From Halomonas sp. YLGW01 (lineage in GTDB: Bacteria > Pseudomonadota > Gammaproteobacteria > Pseudomonadales > Halomonadaceae), in NCBI RefSeq assembly GCF_014840935.1, contig NZ_CP062005.1:744001-808000 (forward strand): 64,000 nucleotides of DNA. Reading direction: 5' to 3'. The position numbers and the translations under genes were made by a program. Numbering within the stretch: the first letter of the stretch is position 1; each line of letters starts with the position of its first letter. This document shows, in pieces, positions 51,811 to 59,878 of this stretch. The notes beneath the pieces are model-generated. The model ran no database searches. It had not been told where the DNA came from and saw nothing but the letters and a program-made list of their open reading frames with translations.

Positions 51811-51970
51811 AGTCAAGGACCGATGCGTAACTGACATGCTCCATGACAAAGGGTTAATACAGTGGGGGCGCCTTCCGCACTCACGTATCCTGAAGGTCTC
51901 CATGACCGTCATGGCCGAGTCTACGACTATCCCGCCGACCCTGGAGGGTCGGTGTCAGCCGAGGTGATTG

Positions 51971-54900
51971 ATGCAACACGTCGCGATCGATGACAAGCAG
52001 GAACTGCTGGCCCAGCTTCAGGCACAGCTGGCGCACCGCCTGGATGAGGACAAGGTGAAGGCCATCGCCACCTTCGCCGAGGTGTTCTTCTCCAACGCCC
52101 CCTATGCCGATCTGGCGGAGCGCCGCCTCGACGACCTCTACGGGGCGGTGCTCTCCGCCTGGCATCTCATGCAGCAACAGGATCCGGACGAGCCCGTTGT
52201 GCGGGTCTTCAACCCCGATTTCGAGGGGCATGGATGGCAGTCGACCCACACCCAGATCGAGGTGCTGGGGCGCGACATGCCGTTCCTGGTCGATTCGGTG
52301 CGCATCGAGCTCAATCGCCGTGGCATCACCGTGCACTCCATCTACAACGCGGTGCTGGCGACCCAGCGCGATGCCCAGCATCGGCTCAAGGCCATGACCG
52401 GTACCCATGCCAAGGATGCACCGCAAGGGCGCGAGTCGCTGATCGTCATCGAGATCGATCGCCACTCCGACCCCGAGCTGCTGGCCGAGATCGAGGCCAG
52501 CCTGCACGAGATTCTCGCCGACGTGCGTACGGCCGTGGCCGATTTCGAGCCGATGCGCGAGCAGGTCAAGGCCTCGCTTGCCGAGCTCAAGGCACTCAAG
52601 CCCGCCCAGGTCGCCGCCAAGGATCACAAGGAAGCCATCGCCTTCCTCGAATGGCTGCTCGACGGCAACTTCACCTTCCTGGGCTATGACGACTACGACG
52701 TCGTCCAGGCCAAGGGCCAGGATCAGCTCAGGAAGCGCAAGGGCAGCGAACTCGGGGTCTTTACCCTGGACGCGCCTCGCTACCAGGAGCGGATCCGCAG
52801 CGACCAGGGCATCGACGGCGATCACTATGTGTTGGTGCCGGAACTGCTGTCCTTCGCCAAGAGCGCCTATCACGCCCGGGTGCATCGTCCGACCTACCCG
52901 GACTACATCTCCATCGATCGCTACGACGATCAGGGCAACGTGATCGGCGAGCGCCGCTTCCTGGGCCTGTTCGCCGCGACCGTCTACAACGACTCGCCGC
53001 GCCACATTCCGGTGCTGCGCCGCAAGATCGAGGCGGTCATGGAGGCGGCCGAGGTCGACCCCCAGGGCCACGACGGCCACCAGCTGCGCCAGATCCTCAA
53101 CGTCTATCCCCGCGATGACCTGTTCCAGATCAGCAATGAGGAGCTGACCCGCACCGCGGTGGGCATCCTCAACATCCGCGAGCGTCGCCGGGTGCGACTG
53201 TTCGTTCGCGAGGATCGCTTCGGCAAGTTCTATTCCTGCCTGGTGTTCGTGCCCCGGGATGTCTTCTCCACCGACCTGCGCGTGCGCATCCAGAACCTGC
53301 TCTGCGAGGAGCTCGATGCTACCTTCGGTGACTTCAACACCTACCTCTCGGAGTCGGTACTGGCGCGCATTCAGCTGATCCTGCGCTTCAACGACGATGG
53401 CCAGGTGGACTACGACCTGGAGCGGCTGGAGCACAAGGTCAGCGCCCTGGCGAGCAGCTGGCGGGATGACCTGCACAGCGCCATGGTGGAAGGCTTCGGC
53501 GAGGAGCAGGCCAACCGGCTGCTGGATGTCTACCGGGATGCCTTCCCGGCCGGCTACCGGGAGGACTTCAGTGCCCGCTCCGCGGTCTACGACATTCATC
53601 ACTGTGCCGAGGTGGAGCAGGGCGCGCCGCTGTCCCTGTCGCTGTATCGCCTGGTCGAGGAAGACGTCGACGGTGTCAACCTGAAGCTCTTCCACAAGTC
53701 GCATCCGATCCCGCTGTCCGACGTGCTGCCGGTGATGGAAAATCTCGGCCTGCGCGTGATCGGCGAGCGTCCCTATGAGATCGCCACGCCCACCGGCAGC
53801 TACTGGATCCACGACTTCAACCTCGAGCATCACGGCAGCGATATCGTCAACCTGCAGGAGATGCGCGAACCCTTCACCGATGCCTTCCAGCGCATCTGGC
53901 GCGGCCAGGCCGAGAACGATCCCTTCAACCGTCTGGTGATCGGCGCCAACCTGAGCTGGCGCGAGGTCGCCATGCTCCGGGCCTACGGCCGCTACCTGAA
54001 GCAGATCCGCTTCGGGCTGTCCCAGCTCTATATCGCGACCACGCTCGCCAGCCATCCGCAGATCACCCGCGAGCTGGTGACCCTGTTCGAGCTGCGCTTC
54101 GATCCGGAGCAGGAAGGCGATCGCGACGCCGAGGCCGAGGCCTGCCAGGCACGCCTGCTGGCCCTGCTGGACGACGTGGCGAGTCTCAACGACGACCTGC
54201 TGCTGCGTCGCTACATCGAGCTGATTCAGGCCACCCTGCGCACCAACTACTATCAGCCGGGCGCGGATGGTGAGCTCAAGGACTACTTCTCCTTCAAGCT
54301 CGACCCGTCGCGGATCACCGGCATGCCCAAGCCGCGGCCGATGTTCGAGATCTTTGTCTACTCGCCCCAGGTCGAGGGCGTCCACCTGCGCGGCGGCAAG
54401 GTGGCCCGCGGGGGCCTGCGCTGGTCGGATCGTCGCGAGGACTTCCGCACCGAGGTGCTGGGCCTCGTCAAGGCGCAGCAGGTCAAGAACGCGGTGATCG
54501 TGCCGGTGGGCGCCAAGGGCGGCTTCGTCTGCAAGCGGCTGCCGGAGGGCGGCGATCGCGATGCCATCCAGCAGGAGGGCATCGCCTGCTACAAGACCTT
54601 CATCCGTGCCCTGCTCGACGTCACCGACAACCTGGATGCCGGTGCGGTGGTCCCGCCGGCCCAGGTGGTGCGCCACGATGCCGATGACCCCTACCTGGTG
54701 GTCGCGGCCGACAAGGGTACCGCCACCTTCTCCGATATCGCCAACGAGATCTCGGTCGAATACGGTCACTGGCTGCGCGACGCCTTCGCCTCTGGCGGTG
54801 CCAACGGCTATGACCACAAGAAGATGGGCATCACCGCCAAGGGCGCCTGGGAGTCGGTCAAGCGCCACTTCCGTGAGCAGGGCGTGAACACTCAGGCCGA

Positions 54901-56812
54901 CGAGTTCAGCGTCGTCGGGATCGGCGACATGGCCGGCGATGTCTTCGGCAACGGCATGCTGCTGTCCGACAAGATCCGTCTGCTGGGCGCCTTCAACCAC
55001 CTGCACATTTTCGTCGACCCGACCCCGGACGTCGCGGCCTCCTTCGCCGAACGCCAGCGGCTCTTTGCGTTGCCGCGCTCGAGCTGGGAAGACTACGACG
55101 CCGCATTGATCTCCGAGGGCGGTGGCATCTTCAAGCGCAGCGCCAAGTCGATCGCCATCACGGCGCAGATGAAGCAGGCCTTCGGCATCAGTGAGGACAA
55201 GCTGTCGCCCAACGACCTGATCCGCGCCATGCTCAAGTCGCAAGTCGACCTGATCTGGAACGGCGGCATCGGCACCTACGTCAAGGCCGAGGCCGAGACC
55301 GATGCCGACGTGGGCGACAAGGCCAACGATGCCCTGCGCGTGAACGGCAACGAGCTCAACTGCCGGGTGGTCGGCGAGGGCGGTAATCTGGGGCTGACTC
55401 AGCGCGGTCGCATGGAAGCCGCCCATAAGGGCGTGCGGGTCAATACCGACTTCATCGACAACGCCGGCGGGGTCAACTGCTCCGACCACGAGGTCAACAT
55501 CAAGATCCTGCTCGACGATATCGTCAAGCGCGGCGACATGACCGACAAGCAGCGCAATCAGCTGCTGGCGAGCATGACCGACGAGGTCTCCGAACTGGTG
55601 ATCCGCGACAACTACCGCCAGACTCAGGCGCTGTCGCTGTCTGAGATTCTCTCCCACGAGGGCCTGGGGCCGTATCGCCGCTTCATCAACGAGCTGGAGG
55701 CGGCCGGGCAGCTCGACCGCGAGCTCGAGTTCCTGCCCAGCGACGAGGAGATGCTGGAGCGCGCCAACGCCAACCAGGGCATGACCCTGCCGGAGCTGTC
55801 GGTGCTGATCTCCTACGCCAAGAGCGCGCTCAAGGGCGACCTGATCGCCTCCGACGTGCCGGACGATCCCTACATCCAGCAGCACCTGGAGCGCGTCTTC
55901 CCGGGTGTGCTGGTGGAGCGCTTCCATGACGAGATGTATGAGCACCGCCTGAAGCGCGAGATTGTCGCCACCCAGATCGCCAACGACCTGGTCGATCATA
56001 TGGGCGTCGTCTTCGTGCGTCGCCTGATCGATACCACCGGCGCCGGCCGTGCCGAGATCGCCCGGGCCTACATCGTGGCGCGGGACAGCTTCAACCTCGA
56101 CGGCCTGTGGCAGCAGGTCGAGGCCCTGGACAACCAGGTGCCGAGCCAGGTGCAGTACCGCATGATGCTGGACCTGATGCGCCTGCTGCGTCGCGCCACT
56201 CGCTGGTTCCTGCGTCAGCGCACCGGCATGACCGCCAAGGACAGTATCGCCCACTTCGCGCCGCGGTTGACCCAGTTGCAGGAGAGCATCGGCAAGCGCC
56301 TGCGTGGTGACGAGCGCGAGGCCTGGGCCGCGCGTCGCGACGAGCTGACGGCGGCGGGCGTGCCGGATGGCCTGGCCAACGTCGTGGCGGCGACCGGCAG
56401 CCTGTACGCGGGCCTCGGCATCATCGAGGCCGCCAAGCAGACCAACGAGAAGATCCAGCGCGTCGCCGAGGTCTTCTATGAGGTCGGCCATCGCCTGGAA
56501 CTGCCGTGGATGACCGAGCAGATCAACAAGCTCGAGGTGCGCGACAGCTGGCAGGCTCAGGCGCGGGAGACCTTCCGCGATGACCTGGATCGCCAGCAGC
56601 TGGCCCTGACCGTGGGCGTGCTGCGCATGGAGACTGGGCCGCGTGAGGTCGAGCCGCGGGTCGAGCAGTGGTTCCAGAACCATGCCGCCATGTATCAGCG
56701 CTGGTGCAAGCTGCTGGTCGAGGTGCACTCCGGCTCTCACGGCGGCTTCCCGCTGTTCGCGGTCGCCATTCGCGAGCTTGTTGACCTGGCCGAAGGCAAC
56801 GCCGAAAGCTGA
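51971..56812 (+). CDS. gdhB: NAD-dependent glutamate dehydrogenase, large (GDH-180) class
   Basis: Cytoplasmic catabolic enzyme turning glutamate into 2-oxoglutarate and ammonium. 1613 residues, the size of P. aeruginosa GdhB. The N-terminal ~700 residues carry regulatory ACT-like segments (LVDSVRIELNRRGI, about 96-110). The catalytic core is at about 700-1250, with RGGLRWSDRREDFRTEVLGL and KGGFVCKRL around residue 845, and GIGDMAGDVFGNGMLLS. The C-terminal helical domain ends at 1613. ATG 51971 has GAGG 6 nt before. Stands alone. Confidence 0.95.
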   Translation: MQHVAIDDKQELLAQLQAQLAHRLDEDKVKAIATFAEVFFSNAPYADLAERRLDDLYGAVLSAWHLMQQQDPDEPVVRVFNPDFEGHGWQSTHTQIEVLGRDMPFLVDSVRIELNRRGITVHSIYNAVLATQRDAQHRLKAMTGTHAKDAPQGRESLIVIEIDRHSDPELLAEIEASLHEILADVRTAVADFEPMREQVKASLAELKALKPAQVAAKDHKEAIAFLEWLLDGNFTFLGYDDYDVVQAKGQDQLRKRKGSELGVFTLDAPRYQERIRSDQGIDGDHYVLVPELLSFAKSAYHARVHRPTYPDYISIDRYDDQGNVIGERRFLGLFAATVYNDSPRHIPVLRRKIEAVMEAAEVDPQGHDGHQLRQILNVYPRDDLFQISNEELTRTAVGILNIRERRRVRLFVREDRFGKFYSCLVFVPRDVFSTDLRVRIQNLLCEELDATFGDFNTYLSESVLARIQLILRFNDDGQVDYDLERLEHKVSALASSWRDDLHSAMVEGFGEEQANRLLDVYRDAFPAGYREDFSARSAVYDIHHCAEVEQGAPLSLSLYRLVEEDVDGVNLKLFHKSHPIPLSDVLPVMENLGLRVIGERPYEIATPTGSYWIHDFNLEHHGSDIVNLQEMREPFTDAFQRIWRGQAENDPFNRLVIGANLSWREVAMLRAYGRYLKQIRFGLSQLYIATTLASHPQITRELVTLFELRFDPEQEGDRDAEAEACQARLLALLDDVASLNDDLLLRRYIELIQATLRTNYYQPGADGELKDYFSFKLDPSRITGMPKPRPMFEIFVYSPQVEGVHLRGGKVARGGLRWSDRREDFRTEVLGLVKAQQVKNAVIVPVGAKGGFVCKRLPEGGDRDAIQQEGIACYKTFIRALLDVTDNLDAGAVVPPAQVVRHDADDPYLVVAADKGTATFSDIANEISVEYGHWLRDAFASGGANGYDHKKMGITAKGAWESVKRHFREQGVNTQADEFSVVGIGDMAGDVFGNGMLLSDKIRLLGAFNHLHIFVDPTPDVAASFAERQRLFALPRSSWEDYDAALISEGGGIFKRSAKSIAITAQMKQAFGISEDKLSPNDLIRAMLKSQVDLIWNGGIGTYVKAEAETDADVGDKANDALRVNGNELNCRVVGEGGNLGLTQRGRMEAAHKGVRVNTDFIDNAGGVNCSDHEVNIKILLDDIVKRGDMTDKQRNQLLASMTDEVSELVIRDNYRQTQALSLSEILSHEGLGPYRRFINELEAAGQLDRELEFLPSDEEMLERANANQGMTLPELSVLISYAKSALKGDLIASDVPDDPYIQQHLERVFPGVLVERFHDEMYEHRLKREIVATQIANDLVDHMGVVFVRRLIDTTGAGRAEIARAYIVARDSFNLDGLWQQVEALDNQVPSQVQYRMMLDLMRLLRRATRWFLRQRTGMTAKDSIAHFAPRLTQLQESIGKRLRGDEREAWAARRDELTAAGVPDGLANVVAATGSLYAGLGIIEAAKQTNEKIQRVAEVFYEVGHRLELPWMTEQINKLEVRDSWQAQARETFRDDLDRQQLALTVGVLRMETGPREVEPRVEQWFQNHAAMYQRWCKLLVEVHSGSHGGFPLFAVAIRELVDLAEGNAES

Positions 56813-56944: not shown

Positions 56945-58300
56945 TTACAGCAGGAACACCGTTGCCAGGCCCAGGAAGGCCATGAAGCCGATCACATCGG
57001 TCACCGTGGTCAGCACCACCGAGCCCGACAGCGCCGGGTCGATGCCCAGGCGCTTGAGCCCCAGGGGAATGGCGATGCCGGCGATGCCGGCGGCCAGCAT
57101 GTTGATGACCAGGGCGACGGCGATGATGCCGCCGATGCGCACGTCCTTGAACCACAGGGTGGCGATCGCGGCGACCACCAGTGCCCACAGCACGCCGTTG
57201 ATCAACGAGATGCCGATTTCCTTTCGCATCAACCAGTTGCTGTTGGTGCGACTGATCTGGCCGAGCGCCAGGCCGCGAATCGCCAGGGTCAGTGTCTGGC
57301 TGCCGGCGATGCCGCCCATGCTGGCGACGATGGGCATCAGAACCGCCAGGGCGACGATCTGGTCGAGGGCCGCCTCGAAGCGGCCGATCACCCAAGCCGC
57401 CAGGAAGGCGGTCATCAGGTTGATGCCGAGCCAGACGGCACGGCGCTTGGCGCTGGGGATCACCGGGGCGAACAGGTCCTCTTCCTCGTCGAGGCCCGCC
57501 ATGTTCATCAGCGCCTGATCCGAACCCTCGCGGATGACGTCGACGATATCGTCGATGACGATGCGCCCCAGCAGCAGGCCGCCCTCGTCGACCACCGGCG
57601 CCGACACCAGATCGTGAGTCTGGAAGAGGGTCGCCACATCCCAGGACTTCATGGTCACCGACACGCTGTCGATGTCGCTTTCCAGCACGTCGGCCACGGC
57701 GAGCTCGGCGGGCTGCGAGACCAGCCGTGCCAGGGGCAGCACCCCCACGAAGATGCCGTTGCGGTCGACCACCATCAGGGCATCGGTGTTGTCCGGGATC
57801 GACTGGTTCTTCCAGCGCAGGAAGCGCTGCACGGTCTCGAGGGTCACGTCGGCGCGCACGCTGACGGTGTCGGTGCGCATCAGGCGACCGGCCGAGTCCT
57901 CTTCGAAGGAAAGCGCCTCCTTAAGACGCTCGCGCTGTAGCTCGTCCATGGAGCGCAGCATGTCCTCGGCGACCTGCTGGGGCAGGTCCTCGAACAGCTC
58001 GGCCAGGTCGCTGGTGTCCATGTTCGAGGTGGCGGCGACGATCTCGTGATCGTCCATGTCCTCGATCAGGGTGCTGCGGACCTCGTCGTGGACCTGCAGC
58101 AGCACATCACCGTCGACGTCCTGTGGGACACGCTCCCAGAGCCGGGTACGGGCCGTCTGGGGAAGGGATTCAAGCAGCAGGGCGATCTCTGCCGGCTCGA
58201 GGTCGCCAAGCACCTCGTCGATCAGGGCATAGTCGTGCTCGACCAGGGCCTCATGAATGCGCGATAGCCGGCCTTCCAGGGTGTCGGTGGTCTCGGTCAT
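56945..58300 (-). CDS. mgtE: Magnesium transporter MgtE
   Basis: Homodimeric inner-membrane Mg2+ channel with Mg-sensing cytosolic domain, 451 residues. MgtE_N domain about 10-120 (LLESLPQTARTRLWERVP), paired CBS domains about 135-260 (LMVVDRNGIFVGVLPLARL), then five helices from about 290. Pore signature ASMGGIAGSQTLTLAIRGLALG includes the conserved GGNAGSQ-like region with I in place of N. ATG 58300 has GGGAG. Monocistronic. Confidence 0.94.
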   Translation of the reverse strand: MTETTDTLEGRLSRIHEALVEHDYALIDEVLGDLEPAEIALLLESLPQTARTRLWERVPQDVDGDVLLQVHDEVRSTLIEDMDDHEIVAATSNMDTSDLAELFEDLPQQVAEDMLRSMDELQRERLKEALSFEEDSAGRLMRTDTVSVRADVTLETVQRFLRWKNQSIPDNTDALMVVDRNGIFVGVLPLARLVSQPAELAVADVLESDIDSVSVTMKSWDVATLFQTHDLVSAPVVDEGGLLLGRIVIDDIVDVIREGSDQALMNMAGLDEEEDLFAPVIPSAKRRAVWLGINLMTAFLAAWVIGRFEAALDQIVALAVLMPIVASMGGIAGSQTLTLAIRGLALGQISRTNSNWLMRKEIGISLINGVLWALVVAAIATLWFKDVRIGGIIAVALVINMLAAGIAGIAIPLGLKRLGIDPALSGSVVLTTVTDVIGFMAFLGLATVFLL

Positions 58301-58411
58301 GGGATCTCCCTGTGATGAAGCGGGCGTGGCCGCGTTGACGGAGGAACGCTGACAGCGGCGCGGCCTTGGTCTGGGTTGGATACGCCCAGTAGACCACAAA
58401 TGGAGAAGCCC

Positions 58412-58712
58412 ATGGCAGGCAGCAGCGACAGCTATCACGAGCCGGTGGAGGAATTGAGCGCCGCCACCCGGGACTATCATCGGGCCATCGTCTCGCTGAT
58501 GGAGGAACCGGAGGCCGTCGACTGGTAAAACAGCGCGTCGATGCCTGCCAGGACCCGGAGCTACGCAAGATTCTGATTCATAACCGGGATGAGGAAAAGG
58601 AGCATGCGGCCATGGCTCTTGAATGGCTCTCGAATGGCTCCGTCGCCATGACAAGACAATGGATGCCCACCTGCCGGAATTCCTGTTCACCGAGGGCGAG
58701 ATCGCCCACTGA
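58412..58712 (+). pseudogene. Encapsulated ferritin-like (EncFtn) gene, frameshifted
   Basis: Frame 1 encodes 38 residues (58412-58525) ending EPEAVDW, then TAA exactly at the Tyr39 codon. Reading frame 3 continues from 58531 as QRVDACQDPELRKILIHNRD, then EEKEHAAMALEWL. After an 11-nt tandem duplication (58619-58629 / 58630-58640) a third frame gives RRHDKTMDAHLPEFLFTEGE to a TGA at 58710-58712. The mended product is about 96 residues, the EncFtn length. Its Glu31, Glu32, Glu34, Trp38, Glu62 and His65 match the metal-site residues I recall from Rhodospirillum rubrum EncFtn. No encapsulin shell gene is nearby. GGAGA precedes the ATG. Confidence 0.85.
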
Positions 58713-58790
58713 GGTGCAGGCGCCATCGCCTTGCCGCTCGGATGACGGCCCCGCCCCGCGCGGGGTTCGTCGTTCATGGGCCAGGTGCGC

Positions 58791-58796
58791 TATAAT
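58791..58796 (+). promoter_or_regulatory. pyrD: Probable -10 element of pyrD
   Basis: TATAAT 60 nt before the pyrD ATG. The -35 is poor (TTCGTC at 58766, 19-nt spacer). A GC-rich palindrome at 58754-58765 lies just upstream. Confidence 0.5.
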
Positions 58797-58855
58797 CCCG
58801 CCGATTTCGTCCCGCCGTTGTTTATCCGTTCGCGTTCACTAGTCCAGGGAGTGCC

Positions 58856-59878
58856 ATGTACGCCGCCGCTCGTTCGATCCTCTTTCGCCTCGATCCCGAG
58901 ACCGCTCACGGTGTGACCCTGACGGCGCTGGACCTGGCACACCGGCTGGGGATGTCCGGCAAGCTGGGTGGTGGCGCGCGGGTCGAGGACCCCGTCGAGC
59001 TGATGGGGCTCACCTTCCCCAACCGGGTGGGGCTCGCCGCCGGGCTGGACAAGAATGCCGACCACCTGGATGCCCTGGGTGCCCTGGGGTTCGGCTTCGT
59101 CGAGGTCGGCACGGTGACGCCGAAGCCTCAGCCGGGCAACCCCAGGCCGCGGCTGTTCCGCCTGCCCGAGGGCGGTGCGATCATCAACCGCATGGGCTTC
59201 AACAATTCAGGCGTCAACCATCTGGTCGAACGGGTCAAGAAGAGCCGCTATGACGGGGTGATCGGCATCAACATCGGCAAGAATCTGACCACCCCGGTGG
59301 AGCAGGCGGTCGACGACTACCTTTACTGCCTCAAGCGGGTGCATGCTCATGCCGACTACATCACGGTTAACATCTCCTCGCCCAATACCCCTGGGCTTCG
59401 CAACCTCCAGTTCGGCGAGCACCTCGACGGGCTGCTCGGCGCGCTGCGCGAGGAGAGCCTGCGGCTCGATCATGACAGCGGCCGGCGAGTGCCCCTGACG
59501 GTGAAGATCGCGCCGGACATGAGCGACGAGGAAGTCGGCCTGGTTGCTCAGGCACTGGTCGCCAACGGCATCGATGGGGTCATCGCGACCAATACCACGG
59601 TGGCGCGGGACGCCGTGGCAGGCATGGCGCATGCCGACGAGGCGGGCGGGCTCTCCGGTCGTCCGGTCTTCGAGTCATCCAACCGGGTGATTCGCGAACT
59701 GCGCCGCCGGTTGCCGGACATGCCGATCATCGGCGTCGGCGGCATCGACAGTGGCGAGGCGGCAGTGGCTAAGCGTCGGGCCGGGGCGGATCTGGTGCAG
59801 CTCTATTCGGGATTCATCTATCGTGGTCCGCCTCTGGTGGGCGAGTGCGCCCGGGCGCTCAAGCTGGCCGCCGACTGA
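58856..59878 (+). CDS. pyrD: Dihydroorotate dehydrogenase (quinone), class 2
   Basis: FMN enzyme on the inner membrane, oxidising dihydroorotate to orotate with quinone. 340 residues. The N-terminal amphipathic helices ([18 protein letters not shown]) are the class 2 membrane anchor. [26 protein letters not shown], catalytic Ser in [25 protein letters not shown], and the FMN-phosphate [25 protein letters not shown] with GGGAG upstream. Confidence 0.95.

Follow-up and report, generated by a model that had tools for sequence, protein, structure and literature searches.

A very probable recent pseudogene of the short, shell-independent EncFtn class in Halomonas sp. YLGW01

Does the broken EncFtn-family gene of Halomonas sp. 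YLGW01 record a ferritin-like cargo that has been left without its encapsulin shell, or the loss of a protein that worked without one? The gene occupies positions 58412-58712 of the window, by which we mean the whole 64,000-nucleotide stretch that was analysed (contig NZ_CP062005.1, positions 744,001 to 808,000 of the forward strand), and it is split over three frames. The genome of the host, which is salt-loving, is a single contig of 3,453,067 bases and is rated 100% complete. As set out below, we conclude that the gene is very probably a pseudogene, recently formed from a short EncFtn that worked independently of a shell (the s-FLP class). The features of the locus are as follows.

51968..56812, plus strand: intact gdhB-like gene of 1614 aa, the left anchor of the locus, named from the reading in the first-pass annotation
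56945..58300, minus strand: intact mgtE-like gene, the divergent neighbour, named from the same reading without a family search
58395..58411, plus strand: leader with the ribosome-binding-site region; two bases differ from all 6 genus siblings in the alignment
58412..58528, plus strand: piece 1, codons 1-38 of the short EncFtn, ending ...SLMEEPEAVDW, then TAA where the siblings have Tyr39
58526..58529, plus strand: lesion 1, a one-base deletion in codon 39 relative to 8/8 homologues, creating TAA at 58526-58528
58529..58633, plus strand: piece 2, in the second frame, codons 40 to about 73, with the DEEKEH region and H57, E61, E62, E64 and H65
58612..58633, plus strand: lesion 2, an 11-nt tandem duplication with copies at 58612-58622 and 58623-58633 that differ by one mismatch
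58623..58712, plus strand: piece 3, in the third frame, the last 29 codons to TGA at 58710-58712, ending ...FLFTEGEIAH with no targeting tail
58856..59878, plus strand: intact pyrD-like gene, the downstream neighbour, named from the first-pass reading

The first-pass annotation, made from the DNA sequence, had read the locus as one EncFtn gene in three frames, and this reading held: each piece matches the EncFtn-like family PF22277 separately. The start codon is the ATG at 58412, within an enclosing open reading frame at 58376..58528. Judged against the curated PF22277 cut-off of 27 bits, piece 1 scores 40 bits (E 3.4e-10), piece 2 scores 62.5 bits (E 3.2e-17; 58525-58629) and piece 3, searched alone, scores 27.8 bits (E 2.1e-6), falling to 25.5 bits, below the cut-off, in the genome-wide search. 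An intact sibling scores 146.5 bits and matches the solved structures of Rhodospirillum rubrum EncFtn (5da5, E 8.2e-37) and of the 95-residue NE0167 (3k6c, E 3.2e-36 over query residues 5-96). The PF22277 search of the host genome finds the three pieces and no second EncFtn copy.

Comparison with intact homologues locates both lesions. The proposed loss of a base at codon 39, which turns Tyr39 into TAA, is a deletion relative to all eight aligned homologues. The 11-nt tandem duplication is likewise real and absent from all eight; it sits at roughly codons 69-74, a little before the position near codon 75 first given for it. The net shift of the two lesions is not a multiple of three, so they do not cancel, as had been noted from the outset. 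The metal ligands Glu31, Glu32, Glu34, Trp38, Glu62 and His65 are indeed still encoded in the pieces, and Tyr39 is lost to the stop. In the numbering of PMC5012862, E32, E62 and H65 with Y39 make up the di-iron site and E31 and E34 the entry site.

Scans of the sibling locus L007 (1200-2050) and of the window (58250-58900) gave no sigma-70-like site in either stretch; a terminator-like site turned up once, in L007 on its minus strand, and the window stretch had none. There is no tRNA within the window and no plasmid match to the region. In the 80 top-ranking named loci with close relatives of the gene, out of at least 577 stretches confirmed, no neighbour family occurs in more than 6 and thus no neighbour hints at function.

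Alignment of the orthologous loci, which had been proposed as a check, showed that the gene is intact elsewhere. Neither the one-base deletion nor the 11-nt duplication occurs in any of the 8 same-locus homologues in the DNA alignment, and all 8 have an open frame of 94-96 codons; six are from genomes of the same genus and two from another genus. The six genus copies are flanked by mgtE-like and pyrD-like genes, and one copy from the other genus (L009) lies between gdhB-like and pyrD-like genes. We found the gene in 7/7 genomes of the genus examined, intact in all 6 besides the host, and in 11 of the 151 genomes of the family sample, host included. The window copy also carries four replacements, missed by the first reading, at residues on which the six genus siblings agree: L33P, N40K, T69A and R85P. 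Position 33 is occupied by Leu, Phe, Met or Ile, never Pro, in 105 short and 20 tailed relatives, and Pro is absent at position 85 among the tabulated residues (two short rows lie outside the table).

Might the gene be intact in the organism, and the lesions be errors of sequencing or assembly? Lesion 1, which affects one base beside a short run of A, is of a kind that would fit this explanation. However, when the open reading frames (90 codons or longer) in 80 kb of one sibling's sequence were compared with the window, with a match defined as more than 60% identity, the EncFtn gene was the sole frame change among 49 matched frames, the other 48 being free of any; since only this gene is broken, sequencing error is unlikely. 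Five other frames were flagged in this comparison: three have stops near the match ends, outside the gene body, one is covered to 83% without a stop and one lies at the window end. Error would also have to account for two independent lesions in one 300-base gene, for duplication copies that have diverged and for the four replacements at sibling-agreed residues, L33P among them, in a genome that is a single contig rated 100% complete. We therefore regard this explanation as improbable.

The decay of the gene appears recent, as the first-pass annotation held. Set against its counterparts in the six genus siblings, the window copy of the EncFtn gene has a dN/dS of 0.04-0.08, close to the values for pyrD (0.055-0.072) and mgtE (0.037-0.081), which indicates that most of the divergence accrued while the gene was functional. 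Between siblings, dN/dS for the EncFtn gene is 0-0.057, so that the values involving the window are only slightly higher. At codons identical among the siblings, the window copy shows 2 replacement and 4 silent changes, the corresponding counts being 1 and 15 for pyrD, and 4 and 21 for mgtE; the excess of replacements on the window branch is suggestive only. The two-base change in the leader might affect the ribosome-binding region. That a product is still made, by programmed frameshifting or as functional fragments, might be proposed from the mostly conserved codons outside the lesions and from the metal ligands, all encoded but Tyr39, but this is highly unlikely, because each of the 8 homologues has one uninterrupted frame and neither lesion, two shifts would be required, one of them across a tandem duplication, and recent loss explains the low dN/dS equally well.

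Two other genomes from the Gammaproteobacteria show apparent losses. L201 (G152:C5) and L202 (G177:C28) retain the last third of a short EncFtn only, with stops upstream in that frame, and G513, a congener of G152, has a complete EncFtn gene. Loss of the short EncFtn gene thus seems to recur, apparently independently.

If the gene encoded a cargo, where is its shell? The absence of an encapsulin gene next to the EncFtn gene, noted at first sight, extends to the whole host genome, where no match to the encapsulin family PF04454 was found at E <= 1, and no match to the family-2 (SrpI-like) shell PF19307; the genome search suggested for a shell gene and for a second EncFtn copy thus yielded neither. 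In the control for the PF04454 search, 4 of 14 genomes gave matches, 3 of them above the cut-off. The search covered PF04454, with PF19307 in the host genome only, so that a very divergent compartment could escape it. The same search at E <= 1 gave no encapsulin in any of the ten other genomes of the family with an intact EncFtn, namely the six genus orthologues and four others of the same family. As no shell is found wherever the gene occurs across the genus, the missing shell is not part of the decay but what is normal for this type. The intact orthologues, moreover, have the full set of EncFtn metal-site residues and end at the core domain (...FLFTDGEIAH) without a targeting tail. The gene is thus of the short EncFtn type (s-FLP), with about 95 residues and neither a long C-terminal tail nor a targeting peptide, and the earlier proposal that a cargo lost its shell, or that the shell lies elsewhere, is not supported, on these two grounds.

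A wider sample bears on whether this holds for short EncFtns in general. Among 369 Gammaproteobacteria genomes, which as related genomes are not independent, 105 match PF22277; the match exceeds the cut-off in 101, and 97 have an EncFtn of full length. Neither the partial match in G237 (27.0 bits) nor any match below the cut-off, here or in the phylum sample described next, was taken as an EncFtn gene, and the full-length count excludes the host genome (G000), G152 and G177. Encapsulin was found in 19 of the 369 genomes; all 19 are among the 97, and each has an EncFtn adjoining the shell gene or fused to it. The other 78 of the 97 full-length carriers have no detectable encapsulin (9 of these 78 genomes are less than 90% complete). 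Tail-less copies away from a shell gene occur in 82 genomes, comprising these 78 and 4 that have a separate, shell-adjacent EncFtn. Among the class genes, the 20 that are tailed or fused separate completely from the other 82 (Fisher p 1.2e-21, the genomes not being independent).

In a phylum sample of 398 genomes, 3 of 18 further EncFtn genomes checked have encapsulins. One of the three has its own long-tailed EncFtn adjoining the shell; in the other two, the shell lies beside a gene with a GSLGIGSL tail, apart from a distant short EncFtn. This shell-adjacent tailed gene looks to us like a DyP peroxidase. In G638 (L237, L234) there are two encapsulin loci, one by a long-tailed EncFtn and one by a DyP-like gene, and both cargo tails contain the motif GSLGIGSL. 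Four loci of family f219 (L221-L224, in G576, G556, G622 and G771) form a very divergent EncFtn branch, scoring about 84 bits, with all metal ligands and a tail of 12 residues; two of these genomes also contain an encapsulin, unlinked and next to a DyP-like gene.

Tail and shell go together across all 130 full-length genes compared. The 109 genes away from a shell have tails of 0-11 aa (one of 28) and the targeting motif in none, and the 21 shell-adjacent genes comprise 20 with motif-bearing tails of 20-40 aa and 1 shell fusion. The motif pattern was composed after the tails had been inspected, and tail length is independent of it. One gene (L179, in G224:C20), grouped with the tail-less forms because it lacks the motif, has a lysine/proline-rich tail of 28-29 residues, and no encapsulin was found in its genome. 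The fusion (L141; G346:C227, 1453-2928, minus strand) is a 492-aa open reading frame in which an EncFtn domain (252-335) runs straight into the latter part of an encapsulin shell domain (profile 116-252); it may be a genuine fusion in a bacterium, or else reflect a deletion or a joint made in assembly.

The short forms keep their metal sites. In a residue table of 105 of the 109 short rows, with L141 left out and the four f219 rows, which keep the same ligands, set aside, E31, E32, E34, Y39, E62 and H65 are present in 105/105 and Trp38 in 103/105; the 20 tailed forms keep these residues likewise. A histidine stands within the last five residues in 97/105. A tree was built from a 93-column alignment without five of the rows, namely L141 (the fusion) and the four distant loci of f219. 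On it, 4 changes account for the tail label, compared with a shuffled mean of 18.8, and on a quick tree that includes all 130 rows 5 changes do. Grouping the tailed forms in one clade is rejected by a narrow margin (p-AU 0.0467, the bootstrap not settled). Because 93 columns are too few to resolve much and the rejection is marginal, we claim no direction for the gain or loss of the tail.

Together, these results weigh against the idea that the window gene encoded a cargo for an encapsulin that has been lost from the lineage or is encoded elsewhere in the genome. Family membership speaks for such a cargo, as does the name of NCBIfam TIGR04535, 'encapsulin-associated ferritin-like protein', which the sibling L007 (1480-1767) passes with 137.1 bits against a cut-off of 125, over profile positions 1-88 of 114. 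That this profile passes on a shell-less short EncFtn indicates that the public name can mislead, and it is a likely source of misnaming. Against such a cargo stand the lack of a PF04454 match in the host and in the ten family genomes, the tail-less orthologues, the predominance of shell-less genomes among tail-less carriers with a separate shell-adjacent copy in the rest, and the two phylum genomes in which the unlinked encapsulin has a tailed DyP-like partner of its own. We consider a lost or distant shell very improbable.

The genomes sampled argue that short EncFtns are not encapsulated, and this co-occurrence test bears on a question raised in a 2024 review. That review (PMC11202242) uses s-FLP for such short proteins, reports that they had at first been classed as non-encapsulated, citing Giessen and Silver 2017, and treats as unsettled whether some undefined sequence in their short tail could bind a shell. 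Against a shell-independent reading, reviews state that, for lack of a shell, proteins of the EncFtn type are unable to hold mineral (PMC7762939) and that they need encapsulin to keep the mineral soluble (PMC7762939 and PMC8346489). We found no report of such a co-occurrence test, nor of a Halomonas EncFtn, in literature that was mostly outside subscription journals.

We propose that the intact short protein would be a free, cytosolic, ring-shaped ferroxidase that oxidises Fe(II), with a decameric form suggested by sequence similarity to 3k6c only (E 3.2e-36). Such a ring might limit free Fe(II) or hand iron on while storing no mineral itself, and cage ferritins of the Bfr and Dps types would be its likely storage partners. 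The host genome keeps two intact-looking PF00210 genes, the only stop inside the second match being its last codon. From their sequences we take these two genes to be Bfr and Dps. In the host strain the EncFtn gene gained the one-base deletion, the 11-nt duplication and the replacements, including a proline between metal-site glutamates, and the retained Bfr-like and Dps-like genes plausibly made its loss tolerable.

The window therefore holds an ordinary pseudogene of a known, under-studied class. Its main value is as a natural loss where all six other genus genomes examined retain the gene; gene loss itself is ordinary, and the shell-less branch is the part worth studying. We think it likely that short EncFtns form a separate, shell-independent iron-oxidising system, commoner than the encapsulated form (82 versus 19 of 369 Gammaproteobacteria), in which the protein's own C-terminus, with its histidine in the last five residues (97/105), replaces the targeting peptide. 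If so, the label 'encapsulin-associated' is wrong for most carriers, and the window records a natural knockout of the system in a cell whose Bfr-like and Dps-like genes are retained. The shell-less majority predicts a ferroxidase ring that works without any cage.

Among known systems, the fusion-FLP of Pyrococcus furiosus (5n5e) resembles the window gene in the type of its core domain, by its description in PMC11202242, and differs in that no shell domain is fused to the window gene. The FLP-TP proteins (R. rubrum Rru_A0973, 5da5; Haliangium 5n5f) share the core domain and the ferroxidase-centre residues; theirs, however, is a C-terminal tail with a targeting peptide (PMC11202242), whereas here we found neither a tail nor an encapsulin gene. 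From the s-FLP of Nitrosomonas europaea (NE0167, 3k6c), whose structure PMC11202242 gives as unpublished, the window copy differs in being broken, though its genus orthologues are intact; with it, the gene agrees in length (94-96 versus 95 aa), in a near-full-length match, in the metal-site residues and in having no targeting tail.
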